A stretch of 64,000 nt of DNA from Pseudofrankia sp. DC12 (GTDB taxonomy: Bacteria; Actinomycetota; Actinomycetes; Frankiales; Frankiaceae). The notes under the pieces were generated by a model. It worked only from the letters and a program-made list of their open reading frames with translations, was not told where the DNA came from and did not search any database. Positions 45,977 through 50,982 of this stretch are shown one piece after another. Each line of letters starts with the position of its first letter. The first letter of the stretch is position 1. The stretch lies in NCBI RefSeq assembly GCF_000966285.1, contig NZ_KQ031391.1:3507208-3571207 (forward strand), given 5' to 3'. The translations under genes were made by a program, and so were the position numbers.

Positions 45977-46501
45977 AGTGTGCAGCCTGGTCGCCCAACG
46001 CTGTGGGCCGACCCCGCACAGATTCAGGACAATCCGTCCCGTGATACCCGTCGCGCCCCGATGTAGGCGACGGTAGGGGAGGTGGACCAGGACGCTCCAT
46101 TGGCCCTATTGCTACCCTTGCGGCTGTCCACTCGCGGGCTCTATCTCATCCATCACCCACGATTCGGACGCCATTGCCGAATCTGGCCAACACCAGCGGC
46201 GCAACAGTCCTGGTGATGGGCGGACCTGCCGGCACGATGGCCGGGCGGGCCGACCTGGTCTGCGCCGGTCTGTGCAAAATCTGGTCATTCGAGGCGTTCG
46301 GTGAACGCTGCGGCCCACGCAGCACGTTGCCCCGATGACCAGCTGTGAGTCGGAGCGCGCCGCCGGTTCACGCTCCGGGTGGGGAGGAACCTTGCGACGT
46401 CGGGATCGCGATCTCGCTGACCGTGCCGCCCGCTGGATGCCGCTGACCGGTCGTCGGGTGGCTCCGCGTCGTCGGGTGGCTCTGCGTGGTCGGGTGGTTC
46501 C
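45977..46501. other. Divergent region with an 18-bp repeat before the kinase
   Basis: The region holds the promoters of the hypothetical gene (minus) and the kinase (plus). Just before the kinase GTG, three units of about 18 bases (CGTCGTCGGGTGGCTCCG type) run from about 46451 to 46503. No other gene is supported. Confidence 0.5.
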
Positions 46502-47935
46502 GTGGGGCTGCTGACGCGCCGCGCCCCCCGCGCCCAGGAGATCGACGAGGGCGCGCCGGTCGTGCTCCCCGAGCCCGAGCCGGGTCTTCCTCGCCGTCCG
46601 AAGGACCCGGCGTTCGTCGGTGACTACCGCGTCCTGCGCCTGCTCGGCGAGGGTGGAATGGGCACCGTCTACCTCGGCGAGTCGGTCGATGGCCGGCGGG
46701 TGGCCGTCAAGGTCATCCAGTCCGAGTACGCCCGGGACCCCGAGTTCCGGGAGCGGTTCCGGGCCGAGACGGCACATGCCCGTCAGGTCGAGGAGGCCTA
46801 CACCGCCGCGGTGCTCGACGCCGACCCGGACGCGGCACTGCCCTACCTGGTCACCGAGTTCGTGCCAGGGCCCACGCTGCGTGCCGCCGTGAACGCCGGA
46901 GGCCCGCTTGGCACCGGCGACCTGGCCCGGCTCGCGGTCGGCATGGGCGCGGCGCTGACCGCGATCCACGGCGCCGGTATCGCCCACCATGACCTCAAGC
47001 CCGGCAACGTGCTGCTCGGCCCGTCGGGGCCACGGGTGATCGACTTCGGCATCGCCAACGGCTTTGGTGGCCAGGCCCTCGGCCAGCAGCACGGGCGGGG
47101 CGGCAGGGGCCGCGGCCGTGGCCGCCGCGGGCACGCGGCGCCGGAGGCCAGCCAGATCGGCACCCCCGGCTACATGGCGCCCGAGCAGGCTCGCGGCGAC
47201 GAGGTCGGCCCGGCCGCCGACGTCTTCGCCTGGGCGGCCGTCATGACGTTCGCCGCGAGCGGGGCACCGCCGTTCGGTGACGGCACCCCGGAGCAGTTGC
47301 TGCACCGGGTCACGCACGATACCCCCGACCTCGGCGCGCTGCCGGCGGACCTGGCCCCGCTGGTCCGCGCCGCCTTCAGCAAGGACCCGCAGGACCGGCC
47401 GTCCGCTGGTGACCTGCTGCTCACGCTGATGGGCGAGAAGTCCGCGGGCCGGCTCAGCGCGCGTGAGCCCGAGCGTCGCCTCGCGCTGCCCGCCGGGCCG
47501 GCCCGGCCCGTCGCCGAGCCGGCACCTGCCGCCGCGCCGAGTGCGCGGCTCGCGCCGTTCGCGTGGGCGCCACCGGCCGCCATCGCGCCCCCGGTGCCTC
47601 GACCAGCCACGCCGGTTCCCGCTCCGCCGGTGGAGGCTGTGCCGTCCGTTGAGGCTGTGCCGGGGGCCGACGGTGTGCCGGCGTTCGACGGCCCGCAGGC
47701 CGTCGCGGCTGCGCTGGCTGTCGACGAGGTGTCGCCGATGCTGGCTGCGCCGGCGCTCGACGACGTGCCACCGGTCGGGGCCGGGCCGGCGTTCGGCGTC
47801 GTGCCGGCGTTCGGCGTCGGCCCGGCTGCCGCAGCCGTGCCAGCCCCGGAGGCCGTGCCAGCCCCGGAGGCCGTGCCAGCCCCGGAGGCCGTGCCAGCCC
47901 CGGAGGCCGTGCCAGCCCGACCGGCCAGCGCCTGA
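46502..47935 (+). CDS. Ser/Thr protein kinase, truncated by frameshift
   Basis: The 477-residue product begins at GTG 46502; its ribosome site is weak. The kinase domain has the P-loop 'LGEGGMGTVYLG' (49-60), Lys 70 in 'VAVKVI', 'HHDLKPGNVLL' with catalytic Asp near 164, 'DFGIAN' at 181 and 'GTPGYMAPEQA'. All catalytic residues are present. His replaces the Arg before the catalytic Asp, so it is a non-RD kinase. The activation segment has an unusual Gly/Arg-rich insertion ('GRGGRGRGRGRRG'). After residue about 300 an Ala/Pro/Val-rich linker ends in four 'VPAPEA' units and a stop. The continuation, with membrane anchor and outer domain, follows in the next frame. Confidence 0.85.
   Translation: MGLLTRRAPRAQEIDEGAPVVLPEPEPGLPRRPKDPAFVGDYRVLRLLGEGGMGTVYLGESVDGRRVAVKVIQSEYARDPEFRERFRAETAHARQVEEAYTAAVLDADPDAALPYLVTEFVPGPTLRAAVNAGGPLGTGDLARLAVGMGAALTAIHGAGIAHHDLKPGNVLLGPSGPRVIDFGIANGFGGQALGQQHGRGGRGRGRGRRGHAAPEASQIGTPGYMAPEQARGDEVGPAADVFAWAAVMTFAASGAPPFGDGTPEQLLHRVTHDTPDLGALPADLAPLVRAAFSKDPQDRPSAGDLLLTLMGEKSAGRLSAREPERRLALPAGPARPVAEPAPAAAPSARLAPFAWAPPAAIAPPVPRPATPVPAPPVEAVPSVEAVPGADGVPAFDGPQAVAAALAVDEVSPMLAAPALDDVPPVGAGPAFGVVPAFGVGPAAAAVPAPEAVPAPEAVPAPEAVPAPEAVPARPASA
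47837..47926 (+). repeat. Coding 18-bp tandem repeat at the kinase frame change
   Basis: GTGCCAGCCCCGGAGGCC occurs four times without change (47837-47908). A fifth unit, GTGCCAGCCCGACCGGCC, has diverged. The kinase frame stops nine bases later, while the next frame becomes coding-like from this point on. Confidence 0.9.
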
Positions 47936-47957
47936 ATCCGGGCCAGGTCCTGAGTTC

Positions 47958-50780
47958 GTGTCGGCTTCCGAGGTCGTGCCGCCGGTTGACGCTGCGCCGG
48001 TGTCCGAGCCTTCGCCGGTGTTCGAGACGGTGCCGCCTTTCGAGACGGTGCCGCCTTTCGAGGCCACCGTGCCCTCCGACGCCCCGCCGTTCGACCGTGC
48101 CGCGCCCGCGGCGGCCGCGTCGACGGATGCCGCTTCCGTGGACGCGGCGCCTGTGCCCGCGCCGGCCGAGGTGGCCGCACCCGTCGCGCGGTCGTCGGGC
48201 GATTCCGTTCTCGAGGTGCCGGACCAGGTCGTTCCAGGCCCGATCCGCCCGGCGGACTCGTCGCCAGACGAGGCCGTCGCCACGCCCGACGTCCGGTTCC
48301 CGCTCATGCCTCCGGTCGCCTCGCACGGGAGCACGGATCCGGCGCAGGCTGGGACGGAGCCGTCCGGCCAGGACCCTGCGGCGCTCACCGCCGCCGAGGC
48401 GCCGGTGGCTGGCGAGCCGGTCGCCGAGCCGCGGGTGGAGCCCCCGACCGGCCTTGGGACACACGCGGTGGGCGTCGACTCGTGGGACGACTGGGCGCCC
48501 GTTCTCGGTTCGATCGGCGAGGCGCACGGCGCGCTCGCGCCGACGGGCCCGGGCGGCTCGGAGATCGTGCCGTTCGGGACCGAGCCGGCAAGCCCGGCGC
48601 CGGCCGATGAGGCGCCGGTTGTCCCGGGGCCGGAGGCCGAGGTCGTCGATCCGCTGTTCGCCCCGCTGACCGACCTGCAGCCGGCTGACGACGGAGCCGG
48701 ATCGGTCTTCGCCGACGTCGTCGGCGCCTTCCCGGCTGTCGCCGCGGGCGTCGGTGCCGTTGACGGCGCGGACACCGGCCATCGCGTGCCCTCGTCCGGC
48801 GAGATCGCTGTCGCGGATGCCGTTGGCGTCACGGACGAGACCGCCGGTGCTCCCCCGGCGGCCGCGCCGGGCGCGCCCGCCGGGCCGGGCAGCGAGTCCG
48901 CGCCCGGAGTGGACGTCGGTCAGGGCATCGACGCCCCGGCGGCGCTCCCGCTGCGTGACGTCGACATCGCCTTCGAAGACCTTCTCGAGGAAGACCGGGC
49001 CGACGCGGACATCGCGGAGATCACCGTCGTCGAGGTCGCGGCGGCGGAGATCACGGTCGCGAACCTCGCGGACGCCGTCGCCGCGCCCGCGGTCGAGGCA
49101 GCGCCGACCCCGGTGGTGGGATCCGAGCTCGTCCTGTCGACCGGTCCACGCTCGGTCGTGCTGCCCGAGAGCGACGTGCCAGCGGACCAGACCGCCGCGG
49201 CCATCCTGACCGGCCCGATCTCGATCCGCGCTGTCGCCGGCCCGGCCAGGCCTGACCTGGGCGACCACCCGAGTGACCTTCGCCTGAGCGCCATCCAGCT
49301 GAGCAACGGCCACCTCACTGGCGATGAGCCGGATGACGGCAGCCAGGACGATCCGCGGGACACAACTCCCGGCGAGGCACCCGTCGCCAGCAAGGCCGCC
49401 GAGGCTACCTCGACGCCGGACGAGGTGGCCGCTTCCGGCCCGGGCGCCGAGCTGGTCCTCGCGCCGTGGCCAGACTCGGCCGCCGCGCTCGCCGAGCTGC
49501 TGCCGCCCGGGGTACTCGTCGCCCGCGCGGCCGACGCCGAGATCGATGTCGACGGCGTCATCGACGTCGGCCCGGACTGGATTCAGGAGACGGGTGGCCG
49601 GTCCGAGCCGGCCCTGCCGCCCATCCGGTTCGCCGACCTGCACGCGTTGTGGGACGGCGAGGTTGATCTCGACCCGGCGGCGAGCGTGCCCGCGGCGCGC
49701 GCGATCGGCGCTGACGTAGCGCTGATCGGCCCGACGCAGTCGCCGCCGGCGTCGGCTCGCCCGTCCACCGAGCTGGAACCGTTCCAGCCCGCGGGCCCGC
49801 GGCTGCCCGAGCTGGCCGCGCCCGTGATTCCCCGGGCTACGTCCGCGGAAGGGCCGGCGACGGAACCGGTCGCGCTGACCCCGACAGGCGGTCAACCGAG
49901 CCTGTCGGTCGACAGCGCCCCGACCATGCAGCTGGTGCTGCCCGGCCAGCCCGGCGCGCGGGCCAGGGCGGCCGCGGTCCGCCGCGGCGCCCGGCGGCGG
50001 CGCAACGTGACGATCCTGGTCGCCCTCGTCGTCGCGCTGGTGGCGACCCTGGTACCGATCCTGCTGAGCTCGTCGGGCGGCGCGGCGACGGCGACGGCCG
50101 CCGGGCTTACGCCCTCGGCGGGCGGGCCCGCCCCGACGCCGGCCGCCAGCCTTCCGGCGGCCGCGACGACCGGCAGCCCTGCCGCGTCGGCCAGCCCGAC
50201 CGACGCGGCCACCACGCCACCGGCTCCCCCCGGGAACCAGCCGGGTGTGCCCGGACTGTTCCTGCAGTCGGTGCCGGGCGGCGTCACGGTCACGATCATC
50301 GCCCCGTTCAACGGCGGTCCCGTCACGTCGTACACGGTGACCTCGACTCCGGGCGGCGCCCGCACGCTCTCGAAGCCCGGGATCTTCCAGGTCCCGGTCG
50401 ACGGCTGCGGCCAGCTGACCGCCACCGTCCGAGCCAGCGGTCCCGGGGGCCTGTCGGAGCCGTCCGCGACAGTGCAGGCTCTGGGCTGCGTTCCGCCTGG
50501 GCCGCCGACCGGGATCCTGGCGATCCCGGATGGTCACGGCCATCTGATCGTCAACTGGGATGTCCCCGCCAACGTCGGTGGCAACGCGGTCAATCTGGTG
50601 TATGTCGTGACCGTTTTCCGGACGGGTCCGGCCGGCGTGACCTCGGACAGCTACACGATCTCGGGGCATAGCTACACGCGTACCGCTCCGACCGCCGCCG
50701 ACCCGTATTTCCGGGTCACGGTGGCCGCGAAGAATGCCGCTGGTGTCGGTGAGCCCGTCGTCGCCTGGGCTAGCCACTAA
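47958..50780 (+). pseudogene. Out-of-frame continuation of the kinase: linker, membrane segment, FN3-like domain
   Basis: From about 47930 the +1 frame becomes protein-like and stays open to 50780; the GTG at 47958 is a possible independent start. The first 680 residues are Pro/Ala/Val/Glu/Asp-rich linker. A basic stretch 'RRGARRRRN' then leads into one membrane segment ('VTILVALVVALVATLVPILL', about 50006-50068). A Pro/Ala/Thr spacer follows, then two fibronectin type III-like repeats ('VTVTIIAPFNGGPVTSYTV', 'PPGPPTGILAIPDGHGHLIVNWDVP'). This is the expected outer part of a receptor kinase. The frame is joined to the kinase by removing one C near 47918, so the two are most likely one broken gene, or one sequencing error. 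Separate translation is possible but unproven. Confidence 0.75.
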
Positions 50781-50787
50781 GCAGTAG

Positions 50788-50982
50788 CCGCGACTGGCCG
50801 CCGCGGCCGCCTCGCTCGCCACCATCGGCCTTTTCGCCTACGCCCGCCACGAGGGATTCATCCCCAACGCCCGGTTGTGGCTCGCGCCCGTGGCCGCGGT
50901 CGCTGTCGCCGCGCTGACGCTGATCGCGGCCCGTGCCACCCTTCGGCTGGGAAGCCTGGAGCCCGCGGACGGGCTCAGATGA
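50788..50982 (+). pseudogene. C-terminal fragment of a membrane permease (FtsX-like)
   Basis: Just after the kinase continuation, the frame from 50794 reads 'LAAAAASLATIGLFAYARH', then 'LWLAPVAAVAVAALTLIAARATLRL' and ends 'LEPADGLR' before TGA. The final 'R..RL.. L.PADGLR' pattern is typical of FtsX/MacB-type ABC permeases. An in-frame TAG at 50785 precedes it and no start is available, so this is an orphaned tail. Its last bases overlap the end of the GNAT gene on the other strand. Confidence 0.6.

Follow-up and report, generated by a model that had tools for sequence, protein, structure and literature searches.

Strain-specific frame disruption at an 18-bp repeat in a conserved receptor-like Ser/Thr kinase gene of Pseudofrankia sp. 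DC12

Two overlapping reading frames and an 18-bp array

The window (the whole 64,000-nt stretch of the Pseudofrankia sp. DC12 genome that was analysed, whose positions are used throughout) carries on its forward strand a gene for a Hanks-type Ser/Thr kinase whose reading frame stops just after a perfect tandem repeat; the sequence for the rest of the protein follows in the +1 frame. The features of the locus are the following.

46502..47935, + strand: kinase reading frame as deposited, 477 aa, with the N-terminus, the kinase domain and the start of a repetitive linker; stop codon TGA at 47933-47935
46625..47419, + strand: Hanks-type Ser/Thr kinase domain (Pfam PF00069, Pkinase, 3.9e-31, residues 42-306)
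46985..47008, + strand: non-RD catalytic loop HHDLKPGN, kept in all orthologs read
47093..47131, + strand: activation-segment insert GRGGRGRGRGRRG, rich in Gly and Arg, found in every ortholog read and absent from the sampled HRD kinases
47837..47908, + strand: four perfect 18-bp units GTGCCAGCCCCGGAGGCC, encoding (VPAPEA)x4, inside a longer degenerate linker with 18-nt periodicity
47909..47935, + strand: frame break, as placed by unit register and codon model; a fifth unit of 13 nt instead of 18, then the kinase-frame stop
47919..50780, + strand: rest of the protein in the +1 frame, with an acidic, Pro/Ala-rich linker, membrane segment and ectodomain
49443..49682, + strand: conserved cytoplasmic 80-residue block in the linker (..LLPPGVL.ARAA..EIDVDGVIDVGPDWIQETGGR..)
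50007..50066, + strand: single membrane segment VTILVALVVALVATLVPILL, predicted from sequence and conserved in sisters, with an Arg-rich stretch before it
50244..50780, + strand: extracellular pair of tandem FN3-like domains, evolving under purifying selection

The +1-frame ORF ending at 50780 overlaps the kinase ORF, and the sister genes begin in the same GTG start region as the latter. The tandem array itself occupies 47834-47918 (85 bp; 4.7 copies of an 18-bp unit with 100% match). Four exact GTGCCAGCCCCGGAGGCC units are observed where 0.58 would be expected by chance, with 0 of 100 shuffles reaching four, and a 30-base pattern across two of these units has a single occurrence in the DC12 genome. 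A sequence-only reading of this DNA had described a kinase frame ending after four exact units and a +1 frame continuing beyond them; both ORFs and the array are confirmed here.

The linker consists of degenerate 6-residue (18-nt) units, and the autocorrelation of the protein sequence peaks at 6, 12 and 18. Between 47639 and 47909 the recognisable unit starts keep one phase (0), and those between 47940 and 48048 have phase 13, which makes the fifth unit 13 nt long; this is a net change of −5 nt, equivalent to a shift into the +1 frame. By a codon model that was trained on the sister genes, frame 0 is preferred up to ~47890 and the +1 frame from ~47950, with the switch lying between. We placed the break by the register of the 18-nt units, the linker being too diverged for a base-by-base sister alignment at the junction. 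The earlier proposal that the frame could be repaired by removing one C is correct in that such a removal restores the frame, but with a register jump of −5 nt it is neither the sole nor the most parsimonious repair. One extra C would be possible only along with a 6-nt change of register, i.e. an in-frame loss of six bases plus one added base; the 8.8-Mb sister (8,815,781 bp), which we take to be EuI1c, shows one such 6-nt register change in its linker.

A second 18-bp array (GTCGTCGGGTGGCTCCGC) is situated at the start codon (46450-46502). The 8.8-Mb sister has additional GGTTCCGTG-type units at this place, which provide several alternative in-frame GTG starts. Two long antisense ORFs run opposite the kinase gene (46112-48832 and 47454-50825, both on the − strand; 906 and 1123 aa); their translations look like spurious frames of high-GC DNA.

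Domains of the protein and similar known systems

The kinase domain has the catalytic Lys, Asp and Asn and the DFG motif (VAVK, HHDLKPGN and DFG are all present), and its closest solved structures are those of PknB and PknA. Two features had been singled out earlier as oddities, the non-RD catalytic loop and the Gly/Arg-rich insertion in the activation segment. Both are real, but neither is peculiar to DC12: they are common to all orthologs read (the loop reads HHDLKPSN in one congener, G007) and, judged on these orthologs, are hallmarks of the group rather than damage. In the other Frankiaceae kinases that we parsed, the loop is HRD and the activation segment 22-27 residues long. Ser and Thr are almost lacking from the insert, as would fit a kinase that does not need phosphorylation of its activation loop.

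Within the otherwise fast-evolving linker the 80-residue block stands out, with more than 50 invariant positions across four species. It has no match in Pfam; an AlphaFold model, of low confidence with four sequences in the alignment, is mostly helical. Short repeats of the AEITVAEV type occur in the linker at 48970-49090; in Pseudofrankia sp. BMG5.36 and P. asymbiotica they have expanded into several 30-bp copies.

The ectodomain probably resembles a tandem FN3 pair. It has weak sequence matches to FN3 domains of titin and contactin, and Foldseek retrieves tandem FN3 structures (E ~6e-5) for a low-confidence AlphaFold model (pLDDT 53; four sequences in the alignment); it does not reach the threshold of the Pfam fn3 model. 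As deposited, the membrane segment and the ectodomain of DC12 are in a different frame from the kinase and so are not part of the same polypeptide; in every sister gene aligned the three belong to one polypeptide. The C-terminal residues of the ectodomain are ASH in DC12 and GQ in the two nearest sisters, the change being due to a short insertion (region 50765-50800). Directly 3′ of the kinase gene DC12 is without ~2.8 kb that is present in both nearest sisters, where it encodes an apparent ABC ATPase and an FtsX-like permease.

The intact gene is organised like the PASTA kinases of the PknB/StkP type, with an intracellular Hanks-type kinase, a linker, a single membrane segment and an extracellular sensor. 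It differs from them in having a tandem FN3-like pair in place of the PASTA repeats, a linker of ~800 residues, HHD rather than HRD in the catalytic loop, and the Gly/Arg-rich activation insert. No PASTA match was found, and the NCBIfam model for the PknB/StkP equivalog gave 167 bits against a cut-off of 450. The best NCBIfam similarity of the kinase domain is to the AfsK-type Ser/Thr kinases of actinobacteria (207.8 bits); this is far under the equivalog cut-off of 1300, and the C-terminal part is different. Our literature searches found no work on this kinase. The intact family is of mild interest for its non-RD loop, Ser/Thr-poor activation segment, fast-evolving repetitive linker and tandem FN3-like sensor.

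Orthologs in relatives and selection on the two halves

A kinase-domain search of 58 genomes revealed a single clear ortholog per genome in six congeners (kinase identity 82-95%, open frames of 1352-1656 aa). An ectodomain search gave matches on the same six open frames; outside the genus the matches were weaker and came from a few Frankiaceae. An end-to-end alignment of five sister genes shows each of them to be one uninterrupted ORF (1343-1458 codons) with a shared VGLLTR start; the two DC12 halves match them over their full length. The sixth congener (G003) has a 1656-aa open frame holding both kinase and ectodomain. Relatives with a continuous gene include Frankia sp. AgB1.9, Pseudofrankia sp. 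BMG5.36 and P. asymbiotica NRRL B-16386. The seventh congener, G007, has kinase and ectodomain on separate contigs, and the continuity counts rest on the other six. Comparison of frames with the sisters, put forward earlier as a check, has now been made: all relatives read have the gene in one continuous frame, without an equivalent break in any. Since the sister genes are uninterrupted and the DC12 halves match them full-length, the frame break is, within the genomes compared, specific to DC12. Intact orthologs together with a DC12-specific disruption form the pattern of a recent truncation.

Paralogous loci in three other genomes (G005:C220, G004:C136 and G006:C1 at ~7.67 Mb) carry ectodomain-bearing open frames that adjoin kinase open frames, which suggests duplication, and that sensor and kinase may have come apart in other species.

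With the two nearest sisters as reference, the kinase has a dN/dS of 0.09-0.10, the ectodomain of 0.11, the 80-residue block of 0.13-0.27 and the low-complexity linkers of ~0.5-0.7. Neither dN/dS nor a branch comparison with the sisters revealed relaxed selection in the DC12 ectodomain after the break, the nonsynonymous/synonymous ratio on the DC12 branch being without excess over the sisters (p = 1.0). Because the ectodomain value is close to that of the kinase (0.11 and 0.10) and there is no decay, the break is either of very recent date or missing from the actual chromosome.

Origin of the frame break

The deposited genome shows, whether by mutation or by artefact, a conserved Pseudofrankia-group receptor kinase whose frame is disrupted in this one strain. 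We put at a little better than even the chance that the DC12 gene has recently been broken by a small indel in the 18-bp minisatellite, with no regulated switch involved. Sequence shows the protein of the relatives to consist of a PknB/AfsK-like kinase inside the cell and two FN3-like domains outside it, joined by a long linker of low complexity and a single membrane helix, and for this intact form we infer a signalling role. A small indel in the fast-evolving minisatellite, which encodes part of the cytoplasmic linker, would break this frame in DC12, so that after the shortened fifth unit translation would end 17 nt later. The product would be an untethered kinase of ~477 residues, with the receptor half not translated in phase. 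The claim that the cell makes a soluble kinase is accordingly valid only if the assembly is correct. The situation is similar to that of recent pseudogenes and frameshifted ORFs, with a single small indel, intact homologous flanks and an intact gene in sister genomes; it differs in that the kinase half of DC12 is a complete catalytic domain, and the truncated product could be active.

The main competitor, to which we assign a substantial chance though one short of even, is an error of the assembly or of its consensus at the repeat, in which case the DC12 gene would in reality be continuous like those of the sisters, maybe with a different number of 18-bp units. The DC12 genome (a single contig of 6,884,336 bp) was assembled with Velvet and AllPaths from Illumina reads at 657x, gaps being closed by PCR, Sanger and/or PacBio sequencing (PMC4541282). 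The break is at the edge of an 85-bp perfect array, a classic spot for a fault of short-read assembly; runs of 100 Ns persist in the assembly (four elsewhere in the sampled DC12 regions, none in the window); the gene is continuous in all relatives read; and an error would also give undiminished selection downstream. On the other hand, the likely change of −5 nt is neither a multiple of 18, as expected from collapse of the array, nor a homopolymer miscall, and at such coverage a 5-nt consensus miscall would be an unusual type of error. Nor was any other intragenic array found with a broken frame in a 1.4-Mb sample of DC12: 29 other arrays keep the coding frame on both sides, and of nine with a frame change the five read out are all situated between separate ORFs. 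DC12 (9/43) and the sister (6/26) have similar proportions of arrays with a frame change. This screen, which is weak in that the kinase array itself is missing from its listing, does not point to any widespread fault of the assembly at short repeats. On balance we lean slightly towards a true recent mutation and away from an assembly error. From the three options offered by the sequence-only reading, mutation and assembly error are both upheld by the continuity of the sister genes and the intact downstream half, and the comparison with sisters speaks against a switch between soluble and anchored forms.

Such a switch, programmed or phase-variable, is improbable because there is no frameshift signal, no relative read is split and the repeat unit is divisible by three. 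With two overlapping frames offset by +1 and a stop near the junction, the DC12 locus does look like programmed frameshift genes of the prfB type, and the downstream frame is intact and conserved, with only 17 nt from break to stop; a minor full-length anchored form could in this way be made beside the soluble kinase. We nevertheless regard programmed +1 frameshifting as highly improbable. A +1 slip at CCC-GA, suggested earlier, needs re-pairing of tRNA-Ala(GCC) on CCC, which is poor and mismatched; the frame-0 junction codons, GCC CGA, therefore do not make a slippery codon. The downstream RNA is no more stable than shuffled sequences (z +0.86), neither a prfB-like CTT-TGA site nor a good internal Shine–Dalgarno match is present near the junction, and the out-of-frame arrangement is not conserved, having an equivalent in no relative read. 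The slippage proposal is thus left with no slippery codon, stimulatory fold or conserved signal. A phase-variable contingency locus, in which changes of repeat number would toggle soluble and anchored forms, has a next to negligible chance. The gene does contain a tandem array, and linker arrays vary between species, but a change in the copy number of an 18-bp unit never moves the frame; in the linkers of the sisters, too, the unit length of most arrays is divisible by three, and every sister gene read is in frame.

Likewise highly improbable is a functional split, in which DC12 would stably use a soluble kinase together with a membrane receptor stub that has its own translation start. In-frame GTG codons do follow soon after the stop (47958, 47976 and 48000), and the paralogous loci of G004-G006 place ectodomain and kinase in neighbouring open frames; still, all the +1-frame GTGs up to 48069 are without a convincing Shine–Dalgarno match, and there is no orthologous precedent. 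Very unlikely, too, is that the break is both real and adaptive, turning an anchored sensor kinase into a constitutively free cytoplasmic one with the FN3 half made separately. The case advises caution: relatives should be checked before a frame break at a tandem repeat in a single assembly is called a regulatory switch.

A second intragenic frameshift in DC12 was found in an MFS transporter gene, among ~133-146 genes comparable with the 8.8-Mb sister; the background rate of frameshifts rests on these ~140 genes, and a frame difference at a gene start (L174/L175) was excluded from the count. In the MFS transporter (L108, just before 15359; G000 ~6,167,360) DC12 lacks one base that the sister has in GGCGGG-CTGC, and the gene is uninterrupted in G001, G002 and G003. 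Recent losses of frame may therefore happen in the smaller DC12 genome, and the transporter counts in favour of a true mutation in the kinase gene.
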